Assembly: GCF_026965535.1 (NCBI RefSeq) | Contig: NZ_CP114039.1 | Coordinates: 3,968,001 to 4,032,000 of the forward strand | Direction of reading: 5' to 3' | Origin: Corallococcus sp. NCRR | GTDB taxonomy: Bacteria > Myxococcota > Myxococcia > Myxococcales > Myxococcaceae | DNA length: 64,000 nucleotides | Notes under the pieces: generated by a model | Told to the model about the DNA's origin: nothing | The model's input: only the letters and a program-made list of their open reading frames with translations | Databases searched by the model: none | Position numbers and translations under genes: made by a program | Shown here: piece by piece, positions 1,234-48,237 of the stretch | Position numbering within the stretch: the first letter of the stretch is position 1 | Layout of the letters: the number at the start of each line of letters is the position of its first letter

Positions 1234-1245
1234 GGGTCGGGCATC

Positions 1246-2735: not shown

Positions 2736-2745
2736 TCGCAGAATC
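2736..2745 (-). promoter_or_regulatory. Severed promoter heptamer of kinase 1
   Basis: The heptamer GATTCTG (minus strand, 2745-2739) is the one found exactly 19 nt before the start codons of kinases 2 and 4. If the IS and one target copy are removed, it also lies exactly 19 nt before the kinase 1 start. The insertion now separates it from the TAGGAT-like sequence and ATG of kinase 1 by about 1.5 kb. Confidence 0.6.
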
Positions 2746-2746
2746 G

Positions 2747-4708: not shown

Positions 4709-4750
4709 GTGGCAGACACTCTAAACCCAGATTCCAGGGATGGCAGAATC
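4709..4750 (-). promoter_or_regulatory. Conserved kinase promoter element (kinase 2)
   Basis: Minus strand: heptamers GATTCTG (4750-4744) and GAATCTG (4734-4728), 16 bp apart start to start, then TAGAGT nine bases before the ATG. The second heptamer ends exactly 19 nt before the start codon, as for kinases 3 and 4. No Shine-Dalgarno sequence is visible, so the transcript may be nearly leaderless. Function is inferred from conservation among the paralogues. Confidence 0.6.
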
Positions 4751-4809
4751 GGGGCTGTCTTTCTCCTGCCTGTCTGCCCGGGGTGTCAGCGAGTGGAAAG
4801 GCGAACCTC

Positions 4810-6702: not shown

Positions 6703-6744
6703 ATGGGGCGCGCATCCTATACGGAACCCTGAAAAGCCCGAACG
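6703..6744 (-). promoter_or_regulatory. Conserved kinase promoter element (kinase 3)
   Basis: Minus strand: CGTTCGG (6744-6738) and GGTTCCG (6728-6722), 16 bp apart; the second ends exactly 19 nt before the ATG. A TAGGAT hexamer lies 11 nt before the ATG. Spacing is the same as for kinases 2 and 4, although the heptamers are less well conserved. Confidence 0.5.
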
Positions 6745-6788
6745 CAGGCTTCCCGCCTGCCCTGCTCACGAGCGTGCGGTGTGGCTTC

Positions 6789-9743: not shown

Positions 9744-9772
9744 GGCCCATCACTCTACGCCCTGGCGTCAAA

Positions 9773-10843: not shown

Positions 10844-10920
10844 GAGGCGCTTACTAACACCCACGCCTCCGCCCGGCACGGTCACCCGCCTGGAGCCCAG
10901 GCGGGGAAGCCTCCCCGCGC

Positions 10921-12465: not shown

Positions 12466-12615
12466 GCCACACCCCTTCAAAAAGGCCTGGGAGGGAGGGT
12501 GTGTCGCGCAAGGGGTTGCGCCAAGTGGCCCCGGGTCGTGACGTGCTCGCCTGCCTGGACCGACGCGGTGTACGGCGGGGCCGCGCGCGGCGTGACCGGT
12601 ATACTGCGCGGCCTC

Positions 12616-13986
12616 ATGAAGACGGACTCGTTGAAGGCGCAGCTCAAGCGCACGTTGCGGCGCGACCTGTGGATCGCCGTCGCTCCGGCGACGCTGCTCA
12701 TCGCGGTGGCGTTCGCGGTGACGTTCTATTTCGTCAAGCCCGCGCCGCCCAAGACGCTGGTGATGGCGCTGGCGCCGGAAGAGGGCGGCTTCAACTACAT
12801 GGCGAAGCGCTACCAGAAGTTCCTCGCGCAGCACGGGGTGACGCTGGAGCTGCGCAACACGAAGGGCTCCGTGGGCAGCGTGGCGCTGCTGAACGCGGAG
12901 GACAGCGGGGTGGACATCGCCTTCGCGCAGAGCGGCACCACCGGCGGCAAGGGGCAGGAGGTGCCGGAGCGCGTGCTGTCGCTGGGGAGCCTCTCCTACG
13001 TGCCGCTGTGGGTCTTCTACCGGGGCGAACCCGTGGACGACGTGCGCGGCCTGCGGGGCAAGCGCATCGCGGTGGGGCCCGAGGAGAGCGGCACGCGCGC
13101 GCTGGCGATGACGCTGCTCCAGGCGAACAAGGCGGACGCGGCGCCCACGGAGTTGCTGCCGCTGGACCGGGACGCCGCCATCGACGCGCTGACGCAGGGC
13201 AAGGTGGACGCGGTGTTCCTGGTGTCGCCCGCGGAGTCGCCGCGCATCCAGAAGCTGGCGGCGGTGAAGGACGTGCGGCTCCTGAGCTTCAAGCGCGCGG
13301 AGGCCTACACGCGCCGCTACCCGTACCTGTCGCGCCACGTGCTGCCGCAGGGCGTGTTCGACTTCGCGAAGAACGTGCCGGACGAGGACGTGGTGCTGCT
13401 CGCGCCCAACGCGCTCCTGCTGGCGAAGGACTCGCTGCACCCGGCGCTCGCGTATCTGCTGATGCGCGCGGCCAGCGACATCCACGGCACGGCGGGCATC
13501 CTGGACAAGACGGGCGAGTTCCCCGCGCCGCTCGCGGCGGGCTTCGCCCTGAGCAGCGAGGCGAAGCGCTACTACGCGACGGGCGTTCCGCTCCTGCAGC
13601 GCTACCTGCCGTTCTGGGCGGCGAACCTGGTGGACCGGCTGTGGGTGATGCTGGTGCCCATCATCGCGGTGGTGGTGCCGCTGGGGCGCGCGGTGCCCGC
13701 GGTGTTCCTGTGGCGGGTGCGCTCGCGCATCCACCGGTGGTACGCGCGGCTGAAGGAGATTGAAATCCAGCTGGAGGAGGACCCGGACCAGGAGCTGCTC
13801 CAGGACATGCTCAAGCGGCTGGAGGAGGCCGAGCGCGAGGTGAACCGCATCGCCGTGCCGCTCGCCTACGCGGAGAACCTGTACTTCTTCCGCGAGCACG
13901 TGGACGTCGTGCGCCGCCGGCTCACCCGCAGGCTGGCGGGCGCGCCCGAGCACAAGGAAGGACACCCGCTGCACGTCACCGCGTGA
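12616..13986 (+). CDS. TAXI-family TRAP solute-binding protein, membrane-anchored
   Basis: 456 residues. A membrane helix at about 20-42 (WIAVAPATLLIAVAFAVTFYF) is followed by a TAXI-type periplasmic binding domain (about 45-330, with LAPEEGGFNYMAKRY, GSVALLNAEDSGVDIAFAQ, LRGKRIAVGPEESGTR and KVDAVFLVSPAES). A second helix (LWVMLVPIIAVVVPLGRAV) follows near 345-370, then a charged cytoplasmic tail with coiled-coil character (LEEDPDQELLQDMLKRLEEAEREV). Typical TAXI proteins are free periplasmic binders feeding a TRAP permease; no permease is nearby and this one is anchored twice. TATACT lies 10 nt before the ATG and no Shine-Dalgarno is seen, so the mRNA may be leaderless. Confidence 0.88.
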   Translation: MKTDSLKAQLKRTLRRDLWIAVAPATLLIAVAFAVTFYFVKPAPPKTLVMALAPEEGGFNYMAKRYQKFLAQHGVTLELRNTKGSVGSVALLNAEDSGVDIAFAQSGTTGGKGQEVPERVLSLGSLSYVPLWVFYRGEPVDDVRGLRGKRIAVGPEESGTRALAMTLLQANKADAAPTELLPLDRDAAIDALTQGKVDAVFLVSPAESPRIQKLAAVKDVRLLSFKRAEAYTRRYPYLSRHVLPQGVFDFAKNVPDEDVVLLAPNALLLAKDSLHPALAYLLMRAASDIHGTAGILDKTGEFPAPLAAGFALSSEAKRYYATGVPLLQRYLPFWAANLVDRLWVMLVPIIAVVVPLGRAVPAVFLWRVRSRIHRWYARLKEIEIQLEEDPDQELLQDMLKRLEEAEREVNRIAVPLAYAENLYFFREHVDVVRRRLTRRLAGAPEHKEGHPLHVTA

Positions 13987-14037
13987 TTCAGGAGGCGGTC
14001 TCGCGGCGGCCCGGGCCTCGGGCCGCCAGCGGAGCCT

Positions 14038-14376
14038 TCAGGGGGCCAGGCCGAGCAGCTCGCGGATCTGCCGGGCCATGGCGATCTCCGACTCGTGCAC
14101 GTGGCCGTCACCGGCGATGAGCGCGTGGACCGCGTCGAGGACGGCCTTGGGGTCCTCGCGCAGCAGGCCCAGGTTCGGCGGCGGGAGCGGATGGCCCTCC
14201 TGGAGGCAGCGGGTGAGGACGCTGAGCTCCGTCAGGGGCACGCTGAAGCCGCGCGCGGTGTCGATGATGGAGTCAATCTCCTCGCGGGTGACGCGGTCGT
14301 CGCTGGTGGCCACCTGGAGCAGGAGCTTGATGACCTCGATGTGGAACTGGGCTTCAGGGGGCAGCGGGGCGGCCAT
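14038..14376 (-). CDS. TerB-like small protein, paralogue 1
   Basis: 112 residues, helical, resembling the TerB/DjlA-like metal-binding fold: FHIEVIKLLLQVATSDDRVTREE, then SIIDTARGFSVP, then LIAGDGHVHESEIAMARQI. It shares the string GHPLPPPNLGLLR with the gene at 16824-17399 (GWPLPPPNLGMLR), so the two are paralogues. ATG 14376 is chosen because GGAGG stands 11 nt upstream; ATG 14394 directly touches that sequence. It is divergent from the first LuxR gene. TerB proteins are linked to tellurite and stress responses, but a specific function here is not shown; the pairing suggests a partner of the regulators. Confidence 0.75.
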   Translation of the reverse strand: MAAPLPPEAQFHIEVIKLLLQVATSDDRVTREEIDSIIDTARGFSVPLTELSVLTRCLQEGHPLPPPNLGLLREDPKAVLDAVHALIAGDGHVHESEIAMARQIRELLGLAP

Positions 14377-14494
14377 GTGGGTTGCATCCTCCAAGGATGT
14401 CCAGGCTGACCTGCCAGGGGGGGAGCCGTCCAGCCCGACGTCACCGCCTCGTCGGAGAGCGGAAAGGCGGGTGGGTGGGGGAGGGGCCTCCAGC

Positions 14495-14520
14495 CCCGGG
14501 TCTCCTCCGTGTCATGCTTG
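14495..14520 (+). promoter_or_regulatory. Shared LuxR-gene promoter motif, copy 1
   Basis: CCCGGGTC, 7 nt, then TGTCATGCTTG, ending 34 nt before the LuxR1 ATG. The same two blocks with the same 7-nt gap recur before LuxR3 at 17646-17671. Either a promoter or an operator for the module. Confidence 0.5.
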
Positions 14521-14553
14521 GGATGGATGGCATTGCCGGGGGAGGCATTCCGC

Positions 14554-15648
14554 ATGGGTAGGGCCTTGCGATTCACGTCACGTGAGGAGTCGATCCAGCG
14601 CGAGCTGCTGACGGACCTGATCGACGTGGGCAGTTACAAGGACATCCACGACGTCCTGGAGACGCGCGTCCTCCAGCTGTGCAGGGCGGACCACTTCGCG
14701 CTGGGCTGCGCCAACCTGGATGGCTCCGTGGGGCTCCAGTGGACGAGCCGCACGACGATGCCCCTGCTCAAGCATTACTCCGAATGGGTGACGCAGGACT
14801 TCGTCTTCCAGGCCACCCTCGCGCGGCCCAACCTCGTGTTGAACACGGCGCAGATGCTCCAGGGGCAGAAGCTGGACGCCATGGAGACCCGGCAGCGCAG
14901 CGTGGAGGCGGGGCTGGACCTGCGGCACGTCATGGCGACGCTGCTCATTGAAGAGCAGCAGGGGCTCAAGGGCGGGCTCGCGGTGTACAGCGAGGCCTCG
15001 CGGCCCTTCCCGGCGCGCAGCCAGCAGCTGTTGCAGCAACTGGTGCCCGCCATCCACCGCGCGGTCGGCCGGGTGCAGCGGCTCCATGCCCAGGGATTGG
15101 AGCTGGACCTGCTCAAGGCCGGCGCCGTCGAGTCCGGGGCCCTGCTGGTGCTGACGCCCTGGGGCCGGGAGATGGTCCGGACGAACGCGGCCACGCGGCT
15201 GTTGGAGAAGTGGTTCACGCGCTCGGAGTTGACGCCGCGGGGGATTCCCATGGCGTGGGTGAAGCGCGTGGAGGCGTTGTCGCGCGTGAGGGGGATGTTC
15301 CCTCCGGACCTGCTCAAGGATGAGATGGAGAAGGACGGCGAGCAATTGCAGATGACGTTCTCGCTCTCCACCATCCTCTGGGCGGGCAATCCCCTGTGGC
15401 AGGTCCGCATCGTCGAGCGTCCGCACTGGCTGCGCGAGGACTGGCTGCGATTGCTGTCGCCCGAGGAGCGCAAGGTGGCGGATGGCCTCTACCTGGGCCT
15501 GTCGAACCAGGACATCGCGCGCCAGATGAAGAAGTCGGTGCAGACGGTGAAGGACCAGGTGAAGGCCATCTACCGGAAGACCGGGACGCAGAGCCGGGGC
15601 CGGGACCGGGCCCGCATGAAGTTCCTCACCGAGGGCCGTCGCGCGTAG
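14554..15648 (+). CDS. LuxR-family regulator with GAF-like N-terminus, paralogue 1
   Basis: 364 residues. The C-terminus is a GerE/LuxR HTH: LSPEERKVADGLYLGLSNQDIARQ, then VQTVKDQVKAIYRKTG. Residues 1-200 look like a GAF-type sensory domain (RADHFALGCANLDGSVGLQW, EWVTQDFVFQATLARPN). No phosphoacceptor receiver domain is seen, so it is probably a one-component regulator responding to a ligand. ATG 14554 aligns with MGKARKFLSRE and MGTVLMFTSRE of its two paralogues and has GGGGGAGG in front. It is divergent from TerB-like paralogue 1 and followed by LuxR2. Confidence 0.9.
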   Translation: MGRALRFTSREESIQRELLTDLIDVGSYKDIHDVLETRVLQLCRADHFALGCANLDGSVGLQWTSRTTMPLLKHYSEWVTQDFVFQATLARPNLVLNTAQMLQGQKLDAMETRQRSVEAGLDLRHVMATLLIEEQQGLKGGLAVYSEASRPFPARSQQLLQQLVPAIHRAVGRVQRLHAQGLELDLLKAGAVESGALLVLTPWGREMVRTNAATRLLEKWFTRSELTPRGIPMAWVKRVEALSRVRGMFPPDLLKDEMEKDGEQLQMTFSLSTILWAGNPLWQVRIVERPHWLREDWLRLLSPEERKVADGLYLGLSNQDIARQMKKSVQTVKDQVKAIYRKTGTQSRGRDRARMKFLTEGRRA

Positions 15649-32116: not shown

Positions 32117-34048
32117 ATGCCCATGAGCCCGACCTACCGAATCCACCCTGCCATTGGCATCGCACGCGTTGGCAACAGCGAGGACTACTACCTGGGGCCG
32201 GTGACGGCCGGAGGACTGCCGCTGGAGAAGGATGGCCAGACGGAGGTGAAGGCCTTCCGCGACGCTCAAGGTGGCATCCGGAGGCAGGCGGCGCGCTTCC
32301 AGGTGTTTGTCTATGACGACCAGAGCCCGCAGGGCCGCCCGGTGGCGCTGGGGCAGGACGTCCAGGACGTCCAGTGGACCGTGCACGTGGCCAACAAGAA
32401 GGCGGCCTGGTACGAGTTCCAGCAGCTCTCCGGCGTGGACGGCAATCACGGGGGCCAGCCGCTGCGCAATCCCAGGATTGCGAGGGGGTTTCGCAATGCG
32501 CTGATCATCGACCCGGGGCCGCGCACCGTCGCGGCCCGGGGCTCCGCGGGGCTGCCGTCCTCCTCCGCCTTCGACGCGCCGAGCGCACCCCGCGGCTATC
32601 CGGTGAACTTCCCGGAGGCGGGCCTGGTCCCGGAGAACAGCGACATCACCACGCTGGGGCAGCTCTCCGTGGACGCCCAGGGCCGCATGGACTTCCGGGG
32701 CGGCTATGGGCGCTCCGGGTGCTCCACGCGGTGGATGGTCACCACGGCGCTGCTCAACACCGTCAACACCACCGATAGCAGCAAGTCCGACTACCTGCCG
32801 CCCGGCGCCGTCGGGTTGCTGCGGCAGATCGCCGACATCGGGTACGCCACGGAGGAGGCGTTCCGGGCGGCCATCATCGGCGTCCTCGGCCAGAACTTCG
32901 GCACGGCCCTGGCCCCGACCGTGGAAGCGATTGCGTACGAGCAGCCGCGCATCGACAACTACGCCAACAACAACTACTGGTGGGACGACACGTCGGACGG
33001 TCCCGTCAGCGCCCGCGTCGTCCTCCCGAACGGCACGCCCGTGGAGGCCACGCCCGCCTGGGTGATGGTGGCGCCGCCGGCCTACGCGCCGCAGATCCTC
33101 AACATGGTGACGCTCTACGACACCATCTACGACGCGCTCGTGCGCTCGCGGAACCTGGCGCCGGACCTCTACGGTCCCAACGGCTTCAATCCCAACTACG
33201 TGCCCAACTATCAGGCGGAGATCCGCCCCATCCTGGCGCGGCCGTCCATCTATCAATGGGTCGCCAACATCAACTCGCAGGGCACGGCGGGACATGACGG
33301 GGTGGTGCGGCAGGACGGGTCGCCGTCCAACTTCTTCGGCTACCTGCGCCAGCCGGGCCATGAGAACGACCCGACGCCGGGCCTGATGCCCAAGCTGGCC
33401 GGGGATGATCCGCTGCAGGGCGAGCCCAACGTCATCCCCAGCCCCCCGAGCAAGTACCTCACGCTGACGCGCACGCAGTACTTCCTGCTCCAGCAGTTCA
33501 GCCAGCAGGTGTACTCCAAGCAACCGCCGCCCGCGTCCACGCTGGGGCCCGGCGAGCAGTGGGACCGCGGGGTGCTGGAGAACTGCGTGGGCGGGCCGTT
33601 CTGCCCGGGCATCGAGATGACCTGGCTGTGCCGCGACCCGGCCATCTACGAGGAGCCCTTCCGCATCAAGCCCATGCCGTCCACCGGCAACTCGGGCCTC
33701 CAGTGGGACACCGAGCCCACCGCGGGCCACGGCCTCCAGCCGGGAGACGCCACCAAGTACATGGCGCTGCCGTGGCAGGCGGACTTCAACGAGTGCTCCA
33801 ACCAGACCACCGACTACACCAACCTCTGGTGGTGGCCCGCGCAGCGCCCGTACTTCGTCTCGTACATGGAGGGCGGCCAGGTGAAGCAGGACTACTGGAC
33901 GCGTCCGGCCGGCGCCAACTTCGTCGTCGACGAGACCATGGTCTTCAACTGGAAGGACCTGGGCTTCATCCTCAAGCAGTCCGGCACGGGCCCGCTGTTC
34001 CTGGAGGTCGAGCGCCGGCCGCTGGAGCACAAGGACGGGACGGCCTGA
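32117..34048 (+). CDS. LodA/GoxA-like quinoprotein oxidase (cysteine tryptophylquinone family)
   Basis: 643 residues. The N-terminus (YRIHPAIGIARVGNSEDYYLGP) and the C-terminal half are typical of LodA/GoxA enzymes, which oxidise free amino acids with a self-derived cysteine tryptophylquinone. The likely cofactor Cys is Cys490 in ENCVGGPFCPGIE; the partner Trp is probably Trp553 in LPWQADF (63 residues away; LodA uses Cys516 and Trp581). A WWWPAQRP block follows. LodA needs an Asp four residues before the Cys; here that position is Val, with Asp seven before and Glu two before. No signal peptide is seen. ATG 32117 is chosen (32123 possible). It is first gene of a three-gene operon with its LodB-like partner 3 bp downstream. 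Confidence 0.9.
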   Translation: MPMSPTYRIHPAIGIARVGNSEDYYLGPVTAGGLPLEKDGQTEVKAFRDAQGGIRRQAARFQVFVYDDQSPQGRPVALGQDVQDVQWTVHVANKKAAWYEFQQLSGVDGNHGGQPLRNPRIARGFRNALIIDPGPRTVAARGSAGLPSSSAFDAPSAPRGYPVNFPEAGLVPENSDITTLGQLSVDAQGRMDFRGGYGRSGCSTRWMVTTALLNTVNTTDSSKSDYLPPGAVGLLRQIADIGYATEEAFRAAIIGVLGQNFGTALAPTVEAIAYEQPRIDNYANNNYWWDDTSDGPVSARVVLPNGTPVEATPAWVMVAPPAYAPQILNMVTLYDTIYDALVRSRNLAPDLYGPNGFNPNYVPNYQAEIRPILARPSIYQWVANINSQGTAGHDGVVRQDGSPSNFFGYLRQPGHENDPTPGLMPKLAGDDPLQGEPNVIPSPPSKYLTLTRTQYFLLQQFSQQVYSKQPPPASTLGPGEQWDRGVLENCVGGPFCPGIEMTWLCRDPAIYEEPFRIKPMPSTGNSGLQWDTEPTAGHGLQPGDATKYMALPWQADFNECSNQTTDYTNLWWWPAQRPYFVSYMEGGQVKQDYWTRPAGANFVVDETMVFNWKDLGFILKQSGTGPLFLEVERRPLEHKDGTA

Positions 34049-34051
34049 GCC

Positions 34052-35218
34052 GTGGGCGACCTCCGGTTTGACGTCGCCGTGCTGGGCGGCGGTCCCGCGG
34101 GCGCGGCGCTGGCGCTGGCGTTGCGCAGGCACTCGGGCCTGCGCGTCGTCTTGTTCGAGCGCTCCACCTACGCGCAGCCCCACCTGGGCGAGACGCTGCC
34201 TCCGGACAGCCGGCGGCTCCTGGCGCGGCTGGGCGTCTGGGAGGCCTTCGCGCGCCAGGGCCACCTGCGCTCCATGGGCTCGTGCTCGCGCTGGGGGGAC
34301 TCCGCGCTGGGCTACAACGACCACCTGCGCTCGCCGTGGGGCACGGGCTGGCACCTGGACCGGGCCCGCTTCGACCGGATGCTCGCGGACGAGGCCTCGC
34401 GCCTCGGCGTGGACGTTCGCACCGGCGCGGCGGTGACGGACTGGACGCCCCTGGCGCACGGCGGCCACCGCCTCTTCCTGCCCCTGCAAGGGGACGCGCC
34501 CCGCGCCTTCGTGGACGCGCGCTTCGTGGTGGACGCCACGGGCCGCGGCGCCGTCTTCGCCACGTCGCGGGGGGCCCGGCGCCACACGGTGGACCGCACC
34601 TTCGGCCTGTGCGGCACGTTCGCGCTCCAGCCCGGCCGCGCCGTGGACGCGCTCACGCTGGTGGAGGCGTGCGAGGACGGCTGGTGGTACTCCGCGCGGA
34701 TGCCCGGCGACCAGGTCGTCTTCGGGCTGATGGGCGACCGGGATTCGCTCCAGGGCGTGTCGCCGAAGGACGCCGGGGCCTGGCGCGCGCGGATGGAGCG
34801 CGCGCCGGAGACGCTCCGCCGCCTGGAGGCCTGTGACTTCACCGGCGGGCCCCTGCGCGCGGTGTCCGCGAACGTCGCCTGCCTGGACCGGCTGCACGGC
34901 GAGGACTGGCTCGCGGTGGGGGATGCCGCGTGCACGTTGGATCCGCTGTCCTCGCAGGGTACGTCCCAGGCCCTGCGCTCCGCGCATCAGGCCGCCGAAG
35001 CCGTGGGCCGGCACCTGCGCGGTGACTTCACCGCGTTGCGCCTCCACGAGGCGAGCACGCGGCACGCGTTCCAGGAGCACCTGCGCATCCGCGAGGGCTA
35101 CTACCGCCTGGAGCGCCGCTGGCCCCACGCGCCGTACTGGCGCAACCGCCAGCAATACCACGCACCCCTTCCATTCGTCGCAGCCCTGAACCCCCTCTCC
35201 GTTGGGAAGAACGCATGA
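34052..35218 (+). CDS. LodB-like FAD-dependent modifying enzyme
   Basis: 388 residues starting at GTG three bases after the LodA-like stop. VAVLGGGPAGAALALAL (9-25) is the FAD-binding Rossmann motif, WLAVGDAACTLDPLSSQG the second FAD motif (about residues 289-306), and YYRLERRWPHAPYW a C-terminal block seen in tryptophan-halogenase-like flavoproteins. LodB proteins are required for making the tryptophylquinone of LodA, so this one most likely matures the upstream gene product. Its stop overlaps the start of the cytochrome gene (ATGA), giving tight coupling. Confidence 0.9.
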   Translation: MGDLRFDVAVLGGGPAGAALALALRRHSGLRVVLFERSTYAQPHLGETLPPDSRRLLARLGVWEAFARQGHLRSMGSCSRWGDSALGYNDHLRSPWGTGWHLDRARFDRMLADEASRLGVDVRTGAAVTDWTPLAHGGHRLFLPLQGDAPRAFVDARFVVDATGRGAVFATSRGARRHTVDRTFGLCGTFALQPGRAVDALTLVEACEDGWWYSARMPGDQVVFGLMGDRDSLQGVSPKDAGAWRARMERAPETLRRLEACDFTGGPLRAVSANVACLDRLHGEDWLAVGDAACTLDPLSSQGTSQALRSAHQAAEAVGRHLRGDFTALRLHEASTRHAFQEHLRIREGYYRLERRWPHAPYWRNRQQYHAPLPFVAALNPLSVGKNA

Positions 35219-38200
35219 CAACCGGACGTCTTCGACCGTCGCGTCACCTGCTCGCCGCCGCGGGTGTCCTCGCGCTGGGCGCGTGCACCTCATGGGAGCG
35301 CGCCGCCGACGTGCCTCCGACCCAGGCCGTGGCCGCGGTGGACGGCTACCTGTCGCCGCCCTTCCCGGTGTTCCCGCACGGGAACACGCTCACGTCATCG
35401 CTGGCGGACAACCACCCGGCGGTGCAGCAGTTCCTGACGTACTACAGCCAGCGGGCCGGCGTGCCGGTGCCCAACCTGACGCGCGCCTCGCTGTTCGCGC
35501 TGCCCAAGCGGTCGCTGGACATCGCGCACAACGGGTTGGACCTGGCGTCAGGCAACTTCAACTCGTCGCTGGTGTGCCAGTCCTGCCATGACAGCGATTG
35601 GAAGGCGTCCGGCACGGACCTGCCGCAGATGTCCTTCTGGGCGCAGCCCGGCGTGGCGCAGGTGGACCCCTCCGGCAAGAGGGACCTCGCGTCCAACTGG
35701 TCCCTCTTCGGGGACTGGAGCGGCTCCATCAAGGCGCTGGCGGCGCGCGACCCCGTCTTCCTGGCGCAGGTGGAGAACACGCGCTCCCTTTCGCCGAACC
35801 AGCCGGAGCAGGTGGACAACCTCTGTCTGCGCTGCCACTCGCCGCTGGGGCAGCGGCAGGCGAACCAGCAGGGGAAGCCCTTCAGCCACTTCATGCTGTA
35901 CGCGACGCCCGAGGGCTCCGGCTACACGAGCCCCGTCCACGACCCGAACGCGAGCCCCGCCAACGCCACGCTGGGCGCGCTGGGCCGGGACGGCGTGTCG
36001 TGCGCCGCGTGCCACGACGTGGCGCCCAAGCAGGGACTGCCCTGGGACGGCAAGGACTTCACGACGTTCTACGGCAGCGAGGCCAACAGCGTCTTCGGTG
36101 GGAACCTGTCCAACCGCCTCAAGGACACGGGTGACTCCCACCAGCCTCCGGCGTTCCCGTTCACCTCGCACATGAACACCCGGCCGGGCTCCGTGGTGGG
36201 GCCGGACACGGGGCTCAACATCGCGCCCATGGCCGCGGCGGGCCTGGGGCTGGAGACGGCCACCAACGCGGCGGGAGGCCAGCCGTACCTGCGTGACGCG
36301 ACGGTGTGCGGCTCCTGCCACGTGGTGGTGCTGCCCAAGGTCCCGGACCGGTACAGCAACGCGCTGACCCTCCAGGAGGCGCAGTCGCGCGGCGGCTACG
36401 TGAAGCCAGCGAGCTGCCCCACCGGGCAGAAGAACTTCACCGGCGACTTCCTCACGGACCCCTGCGTGGGCCTGGCCTACGAGCAGACGACGTACTTCGA
36501 GTGGCTCAACAGCGGCTACGCCACCCAGACGGCGTCCTGCATCACGTGCCACATGCAGCTGGCCAGCGTGTCCACCAACGACGGCTTCGAGCCGGTGGCG
36601 CAGGTGAACGCGGACCTGGCGAAGTTCTACCAGGGCAACACGGCCACGACGCCGCGCCAGTACAACCGGCACTCGCTGCTGGGCGTGAACCTCTTCGTCC
36701 ACGAGATGTTCCAGCAGTTCCCGGACGTGCTGGGCATCGAGTACTACCCGTCGGAGAACTCGGTGGTGCCGCCGTTCCTCCAGTCGACGCCCATCCGCAC
36801 GCGCACGGGCAACCTCATCCAGAACCCGGGCGCGGAGAACGGCGACGCGCGGGGCTGGACGGTGAGAGCGGGCACCCGGATGCAGGCCGTCAAGAGCGAG
36901 GGGAACGTCAAGCCCGCCCACGGTCAGTACTTCTTCACCGTGCGCAGCGACGCCCTCGGGAGCGAAGGGGCGACGCTGACGCTCGACGTGTCCCAGTACG
37001 CCCAGTACATCGACCGGAATGGCGGCGAGGTGGAGCTGAACTGGGGCGCGAGCGTGTTCTACCAGAACGCCTTCGAGGCCAACTTCCCCATCAAGCTCAC
37101 GTTCGGGGGCTCGAACCACATCCCGGACATGCCCGAGTTCAGGAACCCGACCTACGGTACGTGGCTGAGCTTCAACCGGAACGTCCATCTCAGCCCGGGG
37201 ACCCGCTCGGTCACCGTGGTGGTACCGACCAACCTCGGGGTGGATGACCTGTTCCTGTCCCTGACGCTGCCGGAGGCCGCCGCGCCCCAGCTGACGGACG
37301 CGAGCCGGAGCTACGCGGTGGCGAAGAACCTGCTCAACGCGGAGCAGTCCATCCTGGACCTGGCTGTGAACACGTCGCAGGGCGTCTTCAACCCGCTGAA
37401 GCCGGCGGTCCAGGTGTCCGTCGCGCCGCCCACCAACGCAGGCGCCACACAGGACTTCGCCGTCACCGTCACCAACAACGTGGGGCACAAGTTCCCCAGC
37501 GGCGCGGGCTTCCGCCGGGCCTTCGTGCAGTTCGAGCTGCTGGGCGACGGCGGCCGGGTCATCTGGGCGTCCGGCCAGCCGAACGCCTGGGGTGCCATCT
37601 GCCAGGGCGCGTGCAACGTGGCTGGCAGCAACACGCTGCCCTCCGAGTTCGCCACCACCGCCGGTCAGCTCCAGCCCCACCGCCAGGTCATCACCGACGA
37701 GTCGCAGGCGCAGATCTACGAGCTGCGCGTGGTGGACGACTACAAGCAGCTCACCTCCACGGAGCTGCAGCAGTTCCAGGGCGTGAAGGACAACCGCATC
37801 CTGCCGCTGGGCTGGGTGCCGCCCGCGGCGCGCAATCCCTCGGATGCGTTGCTGGGGCTCAACCTCCAGCAGCTCGCCACGCTGACGGAGCCCATGAGCA
37901 CGGTGCTGGGGACCGGCGACACGAGCGTCACCAGCGACCCGGACTACAGCGCGAAGTCCGCGCCGGGCATGGACCACATCACGTACCGCATCCCGACGAA
38001 CCGCACGGCGGGCTGGAAGTCCGCGCGGGTGCGGGTGAACTACCAGACCATCCCGCCCTTCTACCTGGCGGCGCGCTTCAAGGAGGGGCTGACGAACATC
38101 CAGGGCCAGCCGAAGACGCCGGGCCCCGCCATGTCGCGGCTCATCTACATGACCAGCCGGCTCAACAACCAGTCCGGTCTGTCGTACGCGCCGGACCCCA

Positions 38201-38280
38201 GCCAGCCGTCGAAGAAGGTCGACTTCCTCAGCAACTGGACGATGGTCATGGGCGAGTGGACGCAGGTGTCCACGCCGTAG
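35215..38280 (+). CDS. Five-heme c-type cytochrome lipoprotein of the LodA-like operon
   Basis: 1021 residues. A lipoprotein signal ends LGAC (Cys24). Five CXXCH heme sites are visible: CQSCH 121, CLRCH 204, CAACH 263, CGSCH 365 and CITCH 442. Residues about 530-690 look like a beta-sandwich insert (NPGAENGDARGWTV). The C-terminal part contains NNVGHKFPSGAGFRRAF, a motif met in multiheme cytochromes. It should sit on the periplasmic or outer face and carry electrons. Its start overlaps the LodB-like stop, so it is made with the oxidase. A direct role as electron acceptor for the quinoprotein is inferred; cytosolic LodA-like and exported cytochrome would need a shuttle or co-export. Confidence 0.88.
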   Translation: MTTGRLRPSRHLLAAAGVLALGACTSWERAADVPPTQAVAAVDGYLSPPFPVFPHGNTLTSSLADNHPAVQQFLTYYSQRAGVPVPNLTRASLFALPKRSLDIAHNGLDLASGNFNSSLVCQSCHDSDWKASGTDLPQMSFWAQPGVAQVDPSGKRDLASNWSLFGDWSGSIKALAARDPVFLAQVENTRSLSPNQPEQVDNLCLRCHSPLGQRQANQQGKPFSHFMLYATPEGSGYTSPVHDPNASPANATLGALGRDGVSCAACHDVAPKQGLPWDGKDFTTFYGSEANSVFGGNLSNRLKDTGDSHQPPAFPFTSHMNTRPGSVVGPDTGLNIAPMAAAGLGLETATNAAGGQPYLRDATVCGSCHVVVLPKVPDRYSNALTLQEAQSRGGYVKPASCPTGQKNFTGDFLTDPCVGLAYEQTTYFEWLNSGYATQTASCITCHMQLASVSTNDGFEPVAQVNADLAKFYQGNTATTPRQYNRHSLLGVNLFVHEMFQQFPDVLGIEYYPSENSVVPPFLQSTPIRTRTGNLIQNPGAENGDARGWTVRAGTRMQAVKSEGNVKPAHGQYFFTVRSDALGSEGATLTLDVSQYAQYIDRNGGEVELNWGASVFYQNAFEANFPIKLTFGGSNHIPDMPEFRNPTYGTWLSFNRNVHLSPGTRSVTVVVPTNLGVDDLFLSLTLPEAAAPQLTDASRSYAVAKNLLNAEQSILDLAVNTSQGVFNPLKPAVQVSVAPPTNAGATQDFAVTVTNNVGHKFPSGAGFRRAFVQFELLGDGGRVIWASGQPNAWGAICQGACNVAGSNTLPSEFATTAGQLQPHRQVITDESQAQIYELRVVDDYKQLTSTELQQFQGVKDNRILPLGWVPPAARNPSDALLGLNLQQLATLTEPMSTVLGTGDTSVTSDPDYSAKSAPGMDHITYRIPTNRTAGWKSARVRVNYQTIPPFYLAARFKEGLTNIQGQPKTPGPAMSRLIYMTSRLNNQSGLSYAPDPSQPSKKVDFLSNWTMVMGEWTQVSTP

Positions 38281-41641: not shown

Positions 41642-43624
41642 ATGTCCGGGCGTTGGTGGCTGTGCGCGCTGCTGTGGAGTGCCCTGTCCGGCCTGGCCCG
41701 GGCACAGGACGTGACGTCCGTGGACGCGGGCGTGGCGCAGGCCGCGTCGCCGTCGGTGCCGGACGCGCCGCCCGCGCTTCCGGTGGAGGAGCCTCCCGCG
41801 CTCCAGACGGTGGTGACGGGGTCCCGGACTCAGGAGCGTCTTCGCGAGACGCCGGTGGCCACCGAGGTCATCACCCGTTCGGAGCTCGTCGCCAGCGGCG
41901 CGCGAGACGCGTCGGAGTTGTTGAACGCGCGCCCGGGCTTCGTGGTGCAGCAAGGCTTCTCGGGCTCCGGGCTGTCCATGCAGGGGCTGGCGCCGGAGTA
42001 CGTGCTGGTGCTGGTGGATGGCGAGCGCGTCACCGGCAAGGTGGACGGCGACATCGACCTGTCGCGCCTGTCGCTGGAGGACATCGAGCAGGTCGAAATC
42101 GTGAAGGGCCCTGGCTCCGTGCTCTACGGCAGCGACGCGGTGGCGGGCGTGGTGAACTTCATCACCCGCCGCGCGCAGCGCACCTTGGGCGCGGACCTGC
42201 GCGCCGCGTACGGCACGCTGGGCCGGCTGGACCTCGACGCCACCGGTGAGACGCGCGGCGACGCGTGGGGCCTGCGCATGAGCGCCGGGCTCCAGCGGCG
42301 CGACGCCTACGACCTGGACACCTCGGACATTGGCACCACGGGCAGCACGCTGAGCGGCTACGACCTGTCCGCGCGCGGTGACTGGCGTGGCTCGGAGACG
42401 CTGTCGTTGGAGGGCACCGCTTCCTATTCGCACCGCATCCAGCGCGGCGTGGACCTGGGCGCCGCGGGCGCGGTGTTCGACCGGGCCGCCCGTGACAACA
42501 CCTTCACCTCGCGCCTGTCACCGACGTGGCGGCTGGGGGAGGGGATGTCGCTGCGCACGGACGTGTCCTACAGCCACTACGCGCGGCGCTATCTGCGCGA
42601 CCAGCGCAACGCCTCCGCGCTGGACAGCGTGGAGGACACGCGCGACCAGCAGGCCCGCGTGGGCGCGCAGTTGGACGCGCGTCCCGGCGGCGGCCACGCG
42701 CTGGTGGTGGGCACCGAGTACCTGGGCGAATGGTTGCAGTCCGACCGGCTGGATGGCGGACGCGGACGGCGCGGGCGCGGCTCGCTGTACGCGCAGGACA
42801 ACTGGACGCTCTGGGAGCGGCTGGGGCTGGTGGCGGTGCCCGGCGGACGGGTGGACGTGGATTCGCGGTTCGGGCTCGCGCTCACGCCGCGCATCGCGCT
42901 GAAGGTGGAGCCGCTGTCGTGGCTCACCGTGCGCGGTAGCTACGGCTGGGGCTACCGCGCGCCGAGCTTCCAGGACCTGCTCATCGACTTCGAGAACCCG
43001 TCCGTGGGCTACACCGTGCGCGGCAACCCGGACCTGAAGCCGGAGCGCTCGCGCAGCTTCAGCTTCAACGTGGAGACGCGCCCCACGCGAGACTCCGTGG
43101 TGTGGGCGGGCGTGTTCCAGCACTCGCTGCGCGACATGATCACCGCGTCGCTCCAGTCCGAGGGCGACTTCCTGCGCTACTCGTACATCAACATCGCCCG
43201 GGCCCGCGTGCGCGGCGGCGAGCTGGGCCTGCGCCAGACGCTGCCCGGCCGCATCCAGGTGGAGCTGGGCTACACGCTCACCGACGGCACCGACCAGGAC
43301 CTGGACCGCGCGCTGGAGGGCCAGGCGCGGCACCGGCTCACCGCGCAGGCCACGTGGCGCCATCGCCGGTGGGGCCTGGAGGCCCACGTGCGCGGCGCGC
43401 TCACCGGCGAGCGTCCCTTCCATCCCGATACCAACGGAGACGGTGTGGCGGATTCCTACCGTGCCAGCCCCACCGTCTCCCTGGATGCCCGGGTCGCCTG
43501 GCTCCTGCCAGCGGGCGGGCTCCAGCTTTTCGCAGTGGGCAGCAACCTCACCGGTGCGGGCAATCCGACGGACCTGCCCATCCCGCCCCGCACCCTCCAG
43601 GCCGGTGTCTCCACCCGGTTCTGA
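41642..43624 (+). CDS. hmuR: TonB-dependent hemin receptor
   Basis: 660 residues from ATG 41642 (GGGAGG upstream; the frame is open from 41513). A signal peptide (WWLCALLWSALSGLARAQ) is followed by a plug domain (VVTGSRTQERLRETPVATEVITRSEL, LSMQGLAPEYVLVLVDGERV, VKGPGSVLYGSDAVAGVVNFITR) and a 22-strand barrel ending LQAGVSTRF. YRAPSFQDLL and NPDLKPE are the FRAP/NPDL-type motifs of heme receptors. It imports hemin across the outer membrane, energised by TonB. Context (HmuY, S, T, U, V) supports hemin over siderophore. Confidence 0.88.
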   Translation: MSGRWWLCALLWSALSGLARAQDVTSVDAGVAQAASPSVPDAPPALPVEEPPALQTVVTGSRTQERLRETPVATEVITRSELVASGARDASELLNARPGFVVQQGFSGSGLSMQGLAPEYVLVLVDGERVTGKVDGDIDLSRLSLEDIEQVEIVKGPGSVLYGSDAVAGVVNFITRRAQRTLGADLRAAYGTLGRLDLDATGETRGDAWGLRMSAGLQRRDAYDLDTSDIGTTGSTLSGYDLSARGDWRGSETLSLEGTASYSHRIQRGVDLGAAGAVFDRAARDNTFTSRLSPTWRLGEGMSLRTDVSYSHYARRYLRDQRNASALDSVEDTRDQQARVGAQLDARPGGGHALVVGTEYLGEWLQSDRLDGGRGRRGRGSLYAQDNWTLWERLGLVAVPGGRVDVDSRFGLALTPRIALKVEPLSWLTVRGSYGWGYRAPSFQDLLIDFENPSVGYTVRGNPDLKPERSRSFSFNVETRPTRDSVVWAGVFQHSLRDMITASLQSEGDFLRYSYINIARARVRGGELGLRQTLPGRIQVELGYTLTDGTDQDLDRALEGQARHRLTAQATWRHRRWGLEAHVRGALTGERPFHPDTNGDGVADSYRASPTVSLDARVAWLLPAGGLQLFAVGSNLTGAGNPTDLPIPPRTLQAGVSTRF

Positions 43625-43655
43625 TTCTTCACCCAGCACCCATCAAGGAGTCCGC

Positions 43656-44312
43656 ATGTTCCCCATTCCCTTCCGTTCCGGCCTCTTGGGCCGCGCCTGC
43701 GCGGCGCTGCTCATCGCGGGCCTGGGCACCGCGTGCGGTGACGACCTCCAGCCCACGCCCGGGCCCGAGGACGAGGACCCCATCGTCACGCCGCAGGACG
43801 GCGCGAACCTGAAGCACCACGACAACGGCGATGGCTCGTTCACCTCCGTCGTCGACGCGACCAACGCGGACGCGTGGATTGGCCTGGACCTGGATACGGG
43901 CAAGCAGGTGAGCGCGACGGAGGACGCGGTCTGGGACCTGGCCTTCCAGCGCTACACGGTGAAGGCGCGCGGGGGTGTCAGCGGCACGGGCAACGTGCAG
44001 GTGGCCATCGTGCCGGACACGGCGTTCGCGGCGCTCACCCAGGCGCCCGCGTCCGGCTACCTGACGGACGCGGCGGACGGCCCGGACACCGGTGACAGCC
44101 CGGACACCGTCTTCAACCTGGGGGACGGCTGGTACGTCTACGACCTGCCGACCCACACGCTCACGCCTCGCGACCAGCTCTACGTCGTGCGCTCGGATTC
44201 CGGCGCGTACTTCAAGCTGCGGGTGCAGGGCTATTACGACGCCGCCGGCACGCCCGCGATGATGAAGCTGCTCTGGGCGCCGGTGGCCGCGCCGGCCGGG
44301 GTGGGGCCGTGA
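43656..44312 (+). CDS. hmuY: HmuY-family heme-binding lipoprotein
   Basis: 218 residues with lipoprotein signal (CAALLIAGLGTAC, lipidated Cys near 27). The mature part has the HmuY signature: WIGLDLDTGKQVSATEDAVWDLAFQRYTVK, then GNVQVAIVPD and YFKLRVQGYYD near the end. HmuY proteins capture heme from host or prey proteins and hand it to the TonB receptor. AAGGAG precedes ATG 43656. Its stop overlaps the next start. Confidence 0.88.
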   Translation: MFPIPFRSGLLGRACAALLIAGLGTACGDDLQPTPGPEDEDPIVTPQDGANLKHHDNGDGSFTSVVDATNADAWIGLDLDTGKQVSATEDAVWDLAFQRYTVKARGGVSGTGNVQVAIVPDTAFAALTQAPASGYLTDAADGPDTGDSPDTVFNLGDGWYVYDLPTHTLTPRDQLYVVRSDSGAYFKLRVQGYYDAAGTPAMMKLLWAPVAAPAGVGP

Positions 44313-45394
44313 TGGGCCGCACGGAGGAGGTGGCAGGCCCGCTCGCGGCGCTGCGGGAGCGCTGGCGGGCGCTGCGTGAAGCGGAGCCGCGCCTGCGCAT
44401 CCGCGACGCGGCGGACACGCTGGGCGTGAGCGAGGCGGAGCTGCTCGCCACCGGCTTGAGCGGTGAGTTGGTGCGGCTGGAGCCGCGCCTGGACGTGCTG
44501 TTGCCCCGGCTGGAGTCGCTGGGCCGGGTGATGGCGCTCACGCGCAACGCGTCCGCGGTGCATGAGAAGAAGGGCGTCTACCGCAAGGTGGAACTGCACG
44601 GCGCCCGGGCGCTGGTGCTGGACGAGGACATCGACCTGCGGCTGTTCCTGTCGCGCTGGTGCTTCGTCTTCGCGCTGCGCGAGGACCTCTCCGGCCAGGT
44701 GCGCCGCAGCTTCCAGGTGTTCGACGCCGCAGGCACGGCGGTGCACAAAATCTATCTCCAGGACGACGCGAACGTCGCCGCCTTCGAGGGGCTGGTGCGC
44801 GAGCTCCAGCACGAGGACCAGGGCCACGTGCTGGACGTGGTGCCGGCGTCTCCGCCCTCGGAGCCCCGGCCGGACTCGGAGATCGACACGCCGGGCCTCA
44901 AGGCCGGCTGGCGGGCCCTCCAGGACACGCACGAGTTCTTCGCGCTGCTCGGCAGGTTCAAGGTGGCGCGCACGCAGGCGCTGCGGCTGGCGGGGACGGA
45001 GTTCGCGAAGCCGGTGACGCCGGACTCGCTGGGCTGGACGCTGGAGCGCGCCGCGGCGAGCGAGCTGCCCATCATGGTGTTCGTGGGCAACCCGGGCGCC
45101 ATTCAAATCCACACCGGTCCGGTGCGCACGGTGCGGCCCATGGGCCCGTGGATGAACGTGATGGATCCGGGCTTCAACCTGCACGTGCGCGCGGACCACG
45201 TCCACACCGCCTGGGTGGTGCGCAAGCCCACGCGCGACGGCGACGTCACCTCGCTGGAGCTGTTCGACAAGGCGGGGGAGAACATCGCGCTGCTCTTCGG
45301 CAAGCGGAAGCCGGGCGAGTTGGAGTCCCCCACGTGGCGGGCGCTGATGGAGGACCTGGTCCGGACGCTGCCCGCGGTGGAGGTGGCGTCATGA
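44312..45394 (+). CDS. hmuS: Hemin-degrading/chaperone protein HmuS (HemS/ChuS-like)
   Basis: 360 residues with two related halves, as in HemS/ChuS/HmuS: RLRIRDAADTLGVSEAELLATG and RNASAVHEKKGVY in the first half, and MVFVGNPGAIQIHTGPVR, MGPWMNVMDPGFNLHVRADHV in the second. It binds heme in the cytoplasm and releases iron or delivers heme. ATG 44312 shares a base pair block with the HmuY stop (TGATG); GTG 44309 is also possible. Confidence 0.9.
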   Translation: MGRTEEVAGPLAALRERWRALREAEPRLRIRDAADTLGVSEAELLATGLSGELVRLEPRLDVLLPRLESLGRVMALTRNASAVHEKKGVYRKVELHGARALVLDEDIDLRLFLSRWCFVFALREDLSGQVRRSFQVFDAAGTAVHKIYLQDDANVAAFEGLVRELQHEDQGHVLDVVPASPPSEPRPDSEIDTPGLKAGWRALQDTHEFFALLGRFKVARTQALRLAGTEFAKPVTPDSLGWTLERAAASELPIMVFVGNPGAIQIHTGPVRTVRPMGPWMNVMDPGFNLHVRADHVHTAWVVRKPTRDGDVTSLELFDKAGENIALLFGKRKPGELESPTWRALMEDLVRTLPAVEVAS

Positions 45395-46272
45395 GGCGCA
45401 CGGCCTCGAAGTGGGGGCTCGCCGCGGCCCTGTTCGCGCTGGCGGCGCACGCGGCGCCTCCGGTGGCGAAGCCCGCGCCGAAGCTCATCACCATTGGACC
45501 GGCCATCACGCAGACGGTGTTCGCGCTGGGCGCGGGCGACCGGGTGGTGGGCGTGGACGACTCCAGCGCGGCGTTGCCGGAGGCGTCGAAGGTGCGCACG
45601 GTGGGCTACCAGCGCGCGCTGTCCGCGGAAGGGGTGCTGTCGCTGGGCGCCGGCCTGCTCCTGGGCTCCGCGGAGGCGGGGCCCCCGCCGGTGCTGGAGC
45701 AGCTCAAGCAGGCGGGCATGAAGGTGGAGACGTTCGCCAACGAGCCCACGGTGGAGGGTGCGCGCGCTCGCATCCAGGGCATCGCGGAGCGTCTGGGCAT
45801 GCCGGAGCAGGGCAGGGCGCTGGTGGCGAAGCTGGACGCGGACCTGAAGAAGGCGGAGGACCGCGCGGCGCGGGTGAAGGGCTCGAAGCCGCCGCGCATC
45901 CTCGCCATCTACGCGCGCGGTGCGGGCACGATGATGGTGGCGGGCTCGGGCACCGTGGCGGACACGCTCATCCGCCTGACGGGCGCGGTGAACGCGGCGG
46001 ACTCGCTGCCGGGCTACAAGCCGCTGGGCGCGGAGGCCGTGGTGGCGGCGGCGCCGGAGTTCGTGCTCCTGCCCGCGAGCTCGGTGTCGTCGGTGGGCGG
46101 CGCGGAGGGACTGGCGAAGCTGCCCGGGCTGTCGCAGGTGAAGGGCTGGAAGCTCGTCACCGTGGAGGACGTGGACTTCATGGGGCTGGGGCCCAACCTG
46201 GGCCAGGCGGTGGCGCGCGTGCAGGACGCGGTGGCTCCGGCTCCAGCTCCGGCGACGGGCGGCGGCAGATGA
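45391..46272 (+). CDS. hmuT: Periplasmic hemin-binding protein HmuT
   Basis: 293 residues. A signal peptide (LAAALFALAAHAAPP) is followed by a class III binding-protein fold: LITIGPAITQTVFALGAGDRVVGVD, VGYQRALSAEGVLSLGAGLLLGS, MMVAGSGTVADTLIRLTGAVN and VEDVDFMGLGPNLGQ. It should hold hemin for the HmuUV importer. ATGA overlap with hmuS. Confidence 0.92.
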   Translation: MRRTASKWGLAAALFALAAHAAPPVAKPAPKLITIGPAITQTVFALGAGDRVVGVDDSSAALPEASKVRTVGYQRALSAEGVLSLGAGLLLGSAEAGPPPVLEQLKQAGMKVETFANEPTVEGARARIQGIAERLGMPEQGRALVAKLDADLKKAEDRAARVKGSKPPRILAIYARGAGTMMVAGSGTVADTLIRLTGAVNAADSLPGYKPLGAEAVVAAAPEFVLLPASSVSSVGGAEGLAKLPGLSQVKGWKLVTVEDVDFMGLGPNLGQAVARVQDAVAPAPAPATGGGR

Positions 46273-47354
46273 GCGCGTCGGAGGCCATGCCCGTGCCCGC
46301 GTCGCGTCCGGTATCTTCGCGGGTGCCGGGCGCGGGGCCCTGGGTGACGCTGGGGCTGCTGCTGGCGTTGATGGTCCTGGTGTCGCTGGCGGTGGGCTCC
46401 ATGACGGTGCCGCCGTCCGCCATCCTCGGAAGTCTCTGGGAGGCGCTGGGCCTGGGCGAGGCCTCCCACCCGATGGACGCAAGGCAGCGCGCGGTGCTGT
46501 TCACCTTGCGCCTGCCGCGCGTGTTGATGGCCGTGATGGTGGGCGGGGTGCTGGCGACGACGGGCGCCGCGCTCCAGGCCCTCTTCCGCAATCCGTTGGT
46601 GGAGCCCGGCCTGCTGGGCACGTCCAGTGGGGCGGCGCTGGGCGCGGTGCTGGCCATCGTGCTGGACGTGACGCTGGCCGCGCACATGGGGGCCTTCCGG
46701 ATGCTGGTGGTGCCGAGCGCGGCCTTCCTGGGCGCGCTGGCGGCGACGGTGCTCGCCCTGCGGTTGGGCACGGGAGGAGGGCGCACGGACACGCCGCGCG
46801 TGCTGCTGGCGGGCGTGGCGGTGAGCGCGGGCGCGTTCGCGGGCATGGGGCTGCTCACGCACAGCGCGTCGGACGCGCAGTTGCGCACCATCACCTTCTG
46901 GAGCCTGGGCAGCCTGGGTGGCGCGTCGTGGGAGACCGTGGGCGCCGCGGCGCTCCCGCTGGCCGTGACGCTGGGTTTGCTCCTGAGTGAGGCACGCGCG
47001 CTCAACCTGATGCTCCTGGGGGAGCGTGAAGCGTGGCACCTGGGCGTGGACGTGGAGCGGCTCAAGCGCAAGCTCATCCTCGCCGCCGCGCTGGGCGTGG
47101 GAGCCGCGGTGTCGTTCTGCGGGATGATTGGCTTCGTGGGCCTGCTGGTGCCGGCGCTGCTGCGCATCGCGCTCGGTCCGGACCACCGCAGGTTGCTGGC
47201 CGCGTCCGCGCTGTCGGGAGCATCGCTGCTGCTCGCATCGGACCTGCTCGCGCGCACGCTGGCGTCTCCTTCCGAGCTGCCGGTAGGCGCGCTCACGTCC
47301 GTGCTGGGCGTGCCCGCTTTCATCGCGCTGCTCGCGCGCAAGGGGGCGGCATGA
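46269..47354 (+). CDS. hmuU: Hemin ABC transporter permease HmuU (FecCD family)
   Basis: 361 residues with about ten membrane helices and the FecCD motifs LPRVLMAVMVGGVLATTGAAL, LFRNPLVEPGLLGTSSGAALG, MIGFVGLLVPALLR and LPVGALTSVLGVPAFI. ATGA overlap with hmuT. Its 3' end (47321-47357) is duplicated 83 bp downstream around a micro-ORF. Confidence 0.93.
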   Translation: MSASEAMPVPASRPVSSRVPGAGPWVTLGLLLALMVLVSLAVGSMTVPPSAILGSLWEALGLGEASHPMDARQRAVLFTLRLPRVLMAVMVGGVLATTGAALQALFRNPLVEPGLLGTSSGAALGAVLAIVLDVTLAAHMGAFRMLVVPSAAFLGALAATVLALRLGTGGGRTDTPRVLLAGVAVSAGAFAGMGLLTHSASDAQLRTITFWSLGSLGGASWETVGAAALPLAVTLGLLLSEARALNLMLLGEREAWHLGVDVERLKRKLILAAALGVGAAVSFCGMIGFVGLLVPALLRIALGPDHRRLLAASALSGASLLLASDLLARTLASPSELPVGALTSVLGVPAFIALLARKGAA

Positions 47355-47440
47355 GCCACGAGACACATGAAGCGGGGCGCGCCGCCGTGCCGGGGGATGA
47401 CGCCATCGCGTTGTCTGCTCGCGAGGGGGCGGCATGAGCC
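47321..47440. repeat. Duplicated hmuU end around the hmuU-hmuV junction
   Basis: CATCGCG, 14 nt, GGGGGCGGCATGAGCC occurs at 47321-47357 and again at 47404-47440, 83 bp apart. The encoded tails match: IALLARKGAA at the end of HmuU and IALSAREGAA at the end of the micro-ORF. Confidence 0.7.
47351..47437 (+). CDS. 28-residue micro-ORF between hmuU and hmuV
   Basis: Reads MSHETHEAGR...LSAREGAA with ATGA overlaps at both ends, so a ribosome could pass from HmuU through it to HmuV. The last ten residues echo the HmuU C-terminus, which suggests a partial duplication that kept the coupling signals. It contains His/Glu near its N-terminus (HETHE) but is too short for a family. Translation is plausible, function unknown. 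Confidence 0.4.
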   Translation: MSHETHEAGRAAVPGDDAIALSAREGAA

Positions 47441-48237
47441 TGGAGGCGCGCGGCATCGAGGTGTGGCGCGGGCGGGGCAGGGTGGCCGGACCGCTGTCGC
47501 TGGAGGTCCGGCCCGGCGAGGTGTTGGCCGTGGTGGGGCCCAACGGCGCGGGCAAGTCGTCCCTCCTCGCGGCGCTGTCGGGCGAGCTGCGCTGCAAGAT
47601 GGGCGACGTGTACCTGGAGGGCCGCGCGCTGCACCTGTGGCCCTCGGTAGAGCGCGCGCAGCGGCTGGGTGTGCTGCCCCAGGAGTCCTCGCTGGGCTTC
47701 GGCTTCACCGCGCTGGAAGTGGCGGTCCTGGGCCGCAGCCCGCATGTCCGCCGGGGCGGTGACGCGTCCGACCTGGACATCGCCCGCGCGGCGCTGGATG
47801 CCACCGACACGCAGCACCTGGCCTCACGCGCGTACACCACGCTCTCCGGTGGCGAGCGGCAACGCGTGCAACTGGCCCGCGTGCTGGCCCAGCTGTGGAC
47901 GCCGCCCGTGCATGGCCACCGCTACCTGCTCTTGGACGAGCCGACGGCGAGCCTGGACCTGTCCCACCAGCACCTGGTGCTGGAGCGCGCCCGCGCCTTC
48001 GCGCAGGGCGGCGGCGCGGTGCTCGCGGTGTTGCATGACCTGAACCTGGCCGCGAGGTACGCGGACCGCATCGCGGTGTTGGACCAGGGCCGGTGCGTGG
48101 AGACGGGCACGCCTTCGGGAGTGCTGACGCCCGGCCTCATCGCGGGCACCTTCGGGTTGCAGGTGGAGGTGGTGTCGCGGCCGGACCTGCCCGGGCCACT
48201 GGTGATTCCCCTGGGCCGCGCACCCGCGCCGCCCTGA
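47434..48237 (+). CDS. hmuV: Hemin ABC transporter ATPase HmuV
   Basis: 267 residues: Walker A VGPNGAGKSS (residues 33-42), Q-loop LPQESSLGF, signature LSGGERQRV, Walker B YLLLDEPTASLD, switch His in VLHDLNLAA. It energises hemin import with HmuU. Last gene of the operon, followed by an inverted repeat that may terminate transcription. Confidence 0.95.
   Translation: MSLEARGIEVWRGRGRVAGPLSLEVRPGEVLAVVGPNGAGKSSLLAALSGELRCKMGDVYLEGRALHLWPSVERAQRLGVLPQESSLGFGFTALEVAVLGRSPHVRRGGDASDLDIARAALDATDTQHLASRAYTTLSGGERQRVQLARVLAQLWTPPVHGHRYLLLDEPTASLDLSHQHLVLERARAFAQGGGAVLAVLHDLNLAARYADRIAVLDQGRCVETGTPSGVLTPGLIAGTFGLQVEVVSRPDLPGPLVIPLGRAPAPP

Follow-up and report, generated by a model that had tools for sequence, protein, structure and literature searches.

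A conserved myxobacterial operon encoding a LodA-like quinoprotein, a LodB-like maturase and a five-heme c-type cytochrome

Introduction

Enzymes of the LodA type are known to act as oxidases that produce peroxide, with antimicrobial and biofilm roles. The LodA/LodB pair of Marinomonas mediterranea consists of a CTQ-containing lysine 6-oxidase and its maturase, encoded in the order lodA-lodB. LodA is reported to be secreted and LodB to be intracellular (PMC2855505); GoxA, by contrast, carries a twin-arginine signal (PMC3948610). The CTQ residues of LodA were named as Trp581 and Cys516 in a 2015 survey of LodA-like genes, which also described operons with a small extra gene, tyrosinase and multicopper oxidase (PMC4417212). 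A preliminary description of the DNA studied here, in which reported pairs were taken to be two-gene units, was therefore incomplete on this point. Cytochromes go unmentioned in the survey, and the LodA gene of Corallococcus coralloides appears there as the sole group I member outside the subgroups (PMC4417212). Our search of the literature available without subscription found no report joining LodA with a multiheme cytochrome.

Here, we describe a three-gene operon from a window of 64 kb in Corallococcus sp. NCRR (positions 3968001-4032000 of contig C1, the single contig of a 9.79 Mb genome). The operon resembles the Marinomonas LodA/LodB pair in protein family, CTQ residues and lodA-lodB order, and differs from it in a third gene, which encodes a five-heme cytochrome, in a 75-residue insertion by the active site of the LodA-like protein, and in a score of 366.8 bits against the 600 needed for lysine 6-oxidase LodA proper (NF038172). 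The group ID LodA operons likewise encode LodA, LodB and an additional redox protein together (PMC4417212), although their redox proteins are copper oxidases (tyrosinase and multicopper oxidase) rather than a c-type cytochrome, and they belong to another LodA group and other hosts.

Quinohemoprotein amine dehydrogenase (QHNDH) combines CTQ and c-type hemes, the latter in a diheme subunit, in one complex (PMC7876137). The window system is like QHNDH in predicted cofactors, in a flavoprotein maturase related to QhpG of the qhp operon and, putatively, in the acceptor role of the hemes. QHNDH is, however, a heterotrimer of a different kind, with a tiny CTQ subunit bearing thioether cross-links and a diheme subunit, and neither the window LodA nor the cytochrome has a Pfam or NCBIfam match to its subunits; the window system is thus analogous to QHNDH and not a member. 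Cytochrome-linked FAD dehydrogenases also have a dedicated multiheme cytochrome gene beside the dehydrogenase gene, but their catalytic protein is a flavoprotein and not a CTQ quinoprotein.

Organisation of the operon

The three genes lie on the forward strand of the window, at 32117-34048 (lodA-like, a predicted CTQ quinoprotein of 643 aa), 34052-35218 (lodB-like, a predicted FAD maturase of 388 aa with a GTG start) and 35215-38280 (a five-heme c-type cytochrome of 1021 aa). A gap of 3 bp separates the first two, and an ATGA overlap joins the second to the third. Both the reading frames and the junctions agree with the preliminary description, except that the word "fused" in its title applies only to gene adjacency, protein fusion being absent.

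Elsewhere in the window, four similar protein-kinase-like genes stand nearly in tandem on the minus strand (1-8747). Downstream of the trio is a heme-uptake cluster (41642-48237), comprising a TonB receptor, HmuY and HemS/ChuX, and continuing with a binding protein, permease and ATPase that were assigned by layout; it is conserved alongside the trio only in the two nearest relatives.

The LodA-like protein and its maturase

The product of the first gene belongs to the LodA-like CTQ proteins, as judged from both family domains (LodA_N, 201.8 bits, cut-off 26.3; LodA_C, 133.4 bits, cut-off 25), from its predicted cofactor residues and from the adjacent LodB-type flavoprotein. Its best PDB matches are the Marinomonas LodA structures 3weu and 2ymw. 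Asp556 and Cys560 (33782..33796, forward strand) and Trp573 (33833..33835, forward strand) align with the catalytic Asp512, the CTQ Cys516 and the CTQ Trp581 of Marinomonas LodA, and all three are invariant in 17 LodA sequences of the clade described below; orthologues of the window protein are 53-91% identical. Cys496 was also considered as the CTQ cysteine and was rejected, as it aligns with LodA Cys448. A short distance from the CTQ Cys to the CTQ Trp was likewise discarded as a clade-specific feature, since the 13-residue spacing recurs in Azospirillum LodA. The protein also scores far below the level for GoxA glycine oxidase (NF038173, 156.6 bits against 750 needed).

Motif spacing and a split LodA_N match reveal an insertion of about 75 residues (aa 205-278; 32729..32950, forward strand), directly preceding Tyr282, which aligns with LodA Tyr211. 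The distance between the GGxG and WxDD motifs is 86-105 in 17/17 sequences of the cytochrome-linked clade and 20-28 in all others but one, a plasmid protein with an intermediate value. This clade-specific insertion, placed at the mouth of the active site, is a candidate docking element. The AlphaFold model of LodA, built with ten sequences, has a mean pLDDT of 41, which is too poor to judge an interface. In one locus of the clade (L078; G039:C4:414480-416370), lodA contains an in-frame stop and is a pseudogene, unless the stop is a sequencing error.

The second gene encodes a flavoprotein of the LodB/GoxB/QhpG type. Its best NCBIfam match is maturase_LodB, and the scores (NF038171, 227.6 bits; QhpG, 199.8; GoxB, 199.4) are each under the respective cut-off.

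The window LodA has no signal peptide, and the cytochrome has one. The preliminary description saw a topology problem in the missing signal peptide of LodA. The start of Marinomonas LodA is equivalent, however, its residue 4 aligning with residue 8 of the window protein, and that enzyme is reported to be secreted although it likewise has no N-terminal extension; the problem is therefore not peculiar to this operon and adds no difficulty of its own.

The five-heme cytochrome and its relatives

Five CXXCH motifs are present in the cytochrome, at residues 121 (CQSCH, 35575..35589), 204 (CLRCH, 35824..35838), 263 (CAACH, 36001..36015), 365 (CGSCH, 36307..36321) and 442 (CITCH, 36538..36552), all on the forward strand. 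Shuffled versions of the sequence contain 0.004 such motifs on average and one at most. Each motif occupies a shared column and is invariant in 18 orthologues, at an identity of about 50%. Only four further histidines (225, 486, 496 and 758) are invariant in the clade, so that one of the five hemes may be without a sixth His ligand.

The protein begins with a signal sequence and lipobox (LGA/C24, with Cys24 as the lipobox cysteine; 35215..35286, forward strand). A lipobox is found in 5/18 orthologues (the window and loci L061, L062, L063 and L078), of which L063 and L078 lie outside the window's own clade, and the others have a plain hydrophobic N-terminal segment instead. Of the earlier label "five-heme cytochrome lipoprotein", the five CXXCH motifs are thus borne out, whereas the lipoprotein character is not a conserved feature.

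A predicted jelly-roll (aa 531-686; 36805..37272, forward strand) resembles carbohydrate-binding modules in structure comparison of the model, with Z scores of about 10-12 to CBM16, CBM22, CBM4 and sugar-binding F-box domains. It is the least conserved part of the cytochrome; conservation is highest in the heme and C-terminal regions. The beta domains of the model are usable, and its heme part is too poor to judge an interface. A Foldseek match to the penta-heme c552 5ze8 (E 2.8e-4, TM 0.22 by target) was discarded as probably arising from a low-confidence region. The MtrC/MtrF domain PF22113 falls short in the cytochrome (21.2 bits, cut-off 30), and PHROGs gave no match. The host genome contains CcmE, for the assembly of c-type cytochromes, and no match to ResB was found in it; a P460 search of the host was also negative, which is uninformative because the control genomes gave none either.

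Six-heme relatives of the cytochrome occur in L079, L080, L081 and L131-L133, apart from the cytochrome-linked LodA clade. They share all five heme columns and the C-terminal FPSG domain with the window protein, and have an extra N-terminal heme, which in several lies within a P460-like region (sub-threshold or borderline in Pfam). This sixth heme part is absent from the window cytochrome and from all LodA-linked orthologues; conversely, zero to six residues of the jelly-roll region are aligned in the six-heme relatives. Domain changes therefore accompany the partnership: the cytochrome is without the P460-like head and has a jelly-roll, and its LodA has an insertion. The distant relative in L131 (hhalign against the window cytochrome, E 1.9e-88), from a deltaproteobacterial MAG, lies in a gene run (9230-15096) with a small subunit of the FAD-SLDH type and a GMC oxidoreductase. 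A GMC oxidoreductase, an FAD-SLDH small subunit and a multiheme cytochrome together form the layout of cytochrome-linked flavin dehydrogenases.

Conservation of the trio in Myxococcaceae

The distribution of the trio was surveyed in 96 Myxococcaceae genomes, with presence taken as a score above 390 bits for LodA and above 1000 bits for the cytochrome. LodA of the clade is present in 18/96 genomes and the cytochrome in exactly the same 18; the next-best scores fall to 140 bits for LodA and 124 bits for the cytochrome. Co-occurrence of the cytochrome gene with lodA/lodB in relatives, which the preliminary description had named as one of two observations on which its proposal would stand or fall, thus holds in 18/18 genomes and within one clade. 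The three genes are adjacent, in the same order and on the same strand, in 17/18, and in the remaining genome (G074) the break between two contigs falls exactly between lodB and the cytochrome gene. The junctions vary across the loci, with 4-bp overlaps at one extreme and spacings of some tens of bases at the other.

Named carriers include Corallococcus carmarthensis, C. praedator, C. interemptor, C. terminator, Archangium violaceum, Myxococcus vastator and Hyalangium versicolor; by operon, the nearest named relatives of the window are C. carmarthensis and Corallococcus sp. AS-1-6. Upstream neighbourhoods fall into about ten unrelated sets, and the trio has therefore been kept while its surroundings changed. 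Pairwise distances of the cytochrome correlate with those of LodA (r = 0.982, reached by 0/2000 permutations, with host relatedness contributing to r) and of LodB (r = 0.956). In the tree, the cytochrome-linked LodAs form a single clade with support 97.

In 12 other loci (L064, L065, L067, L069-L076 and L078; for example L065:12795-13790), the cytochrome gene is followed by a convergent gene with a product of about 331-370 aa, which is absent from the clade of the window. One record, L129 (BNCN01000002.1, 'Comamonas sp. KCTC 72670'), belongs to the Myxococcaceae by content and taxonomy group and is probably mislabelled.

A second pairing of LodA with a cytochrome

In a separate Myxococcaceae LodA clade, a two-CXXCH gene is located directly upstream of lodA-lodB in 17/17 loci (L082, L086, L088, L089, L090, L092, L093, L095, L098, L100, L102, L103, L104, L106, L115, L117 and L079). 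The gene is complete in 16 of these; in L079 the contig begins inside it, and the remnant is 66.7% identical to its counterpart in L086. Its distance to lodA is 12-53 bp, with one pair overlapping by 4 bp. Most of the encoded proteins have a signal peptide, and some have a fascin-like beta-trefoil part. This LodA clade is not sister to the five-heme-linked clade, and the diheme and five-heme proteins are unrelated (hhalign probability 1.5%); hence LodA enzymes acquired c-type cytochrome partners on at least two occasions. A Pfam match of the CCP/MauG type is absent from the five-heme protein and from the diheme partners alike.

About 20 further Myxococcaceae LodA paralogues have no multi-CXXCH gene nearby. 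The same is true of 15/16 LodA loci outside the family, where the survey beyond Myxococcota covered plasmid records only; the exception is Azospirillum brasilense, in which a divergent di-heme oxidoreductase gene is found 1.7 kb upstream of the LodA gene, outside the operon. The cytochrome link is therefore a property of two clades and not of the LodA background. A ferritin-like gene, possibly encoding a redox or metal partner, precedes the LodA gene in A. brasilense (L168:4617-7842) and Hymenobacter (L175:3501-6491).

Proposed function and alternatives

We consider it probable that the operon encodes a CTQ amine or amino-acid dehydrogenase that hands electrons to its own exported cytochrome. 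LodB would help quinone formation in LodA inside the cell, and LodA would be exported by the same route as its Marinomonas counterpart. Outside the inner membrane, it would oxidise a putative amine substrate, and the reduced quinone would pass electrons to the five-heme cytochrome, which may hand them on to the respiratory chain or to another acceptor. Electron transfer, LodA export, complex formation and the nature of the substrate are what we infer from comparative evidence, in which strict co-occurrence, matched divergence, invariant CTQ and heme residues, a single LodA clade with a unique insertion and some ten genomic contexts all point in this direction. The second independent pairing, the GMC gene run beside the L131 relative, CcmE in the host and the precedent of QHNDH also favour it. 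Against this reading, the LodA enzymes that have been characterised need no cytochrome to reduce oxygen to peroxide. LodA also has no signal peptide where the cytochrome has one, and many paralogues of the family have no adjacent heme gene. Since the five-heme gene is a conserved neighbour, the enzyme is suggested to feed electrons into a respiratory chain rather than only to make hydrogen peroxide.

The broader proposal, to which we give even chances, is that in myxobacteria LodA-type enzymes were turned at least twice and independently, with unrelated partners (the five-heme and the diheme proteins), into cytochrome-linked amine or amino-acid dehydrogenases, possibly serving extracellular or respiratory electron flow, with partner and enzyme having changed together. 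If true, part of the LodA family would be recast as dehydrogenases, functionally joined to quinohemoprotein amine dehydrogenase. This could explain why the C. coralloides LodA stood as an orphan in the survey of 2015, and the gene sets defined here would allow the switch of a quinone cofactor's acceptor from oxygen to heme to be tested.

Among the alternatives, a role of the cytochrome in making the cofactor is unlikely. It would oxidise the exported CTQ precursor, in a role like that of MauG for TTQ or the one proposed for the hemes in the final oxidation of QHNDH (PMC7876137), and a LodB-type maturase is indeed part of the operon. Known LodA and GoxA mature with LodB or GoxB alone, however, neither type of cytochrome resembles MauG or CCP in Pfam, and five hemes with large beta domains exceed the need of such a step.

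Slightly less likely still is a multiheme peroxidase that removes or uses the hydrogen peroxide of LodA and so protects the cell, as would suit a heme that may lack a sixth His ligand. Known peroxidase families are unmatched by the cytochrome in Pfam and NCBIfam, its distant relative adjoins a GMC dehydrogenase, and the unrelated diheme partner shows no CCP/MauG match either. Both electron transfer to the cytochrome and peroxide detoxification had been put forward in the preliminary description; the former is favoured, because a diheme partner of unrelated origin was recruited in the other clade and a dehydrogenase is encoded beside the relative.

We see just as little prospect for LodA as a peroxide weapon or biofilm enzyme, with the jelly-roll cytochrome acting mainly as a surface anchor or as a separate shuttle to outside acceptors. 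LodA-type proteins do act in biofilms and competition (PMC4417212), and a carbohydrate-binding-like domain was gained in the LodA-linked subfamily, but a jelly-roll fold by itself is no proof of sugar binding, and this domain is the least conserved while the heme and C-terminal parts are the most conserved. Finally, mere co-inheritance without direct functional contact, for instance as a mobile block, would fit the several genomic settings of the trio, but is very improbable given the overlapping reading frames, the matched divergence and the second, independent pairing of LodA with a cytochrome.
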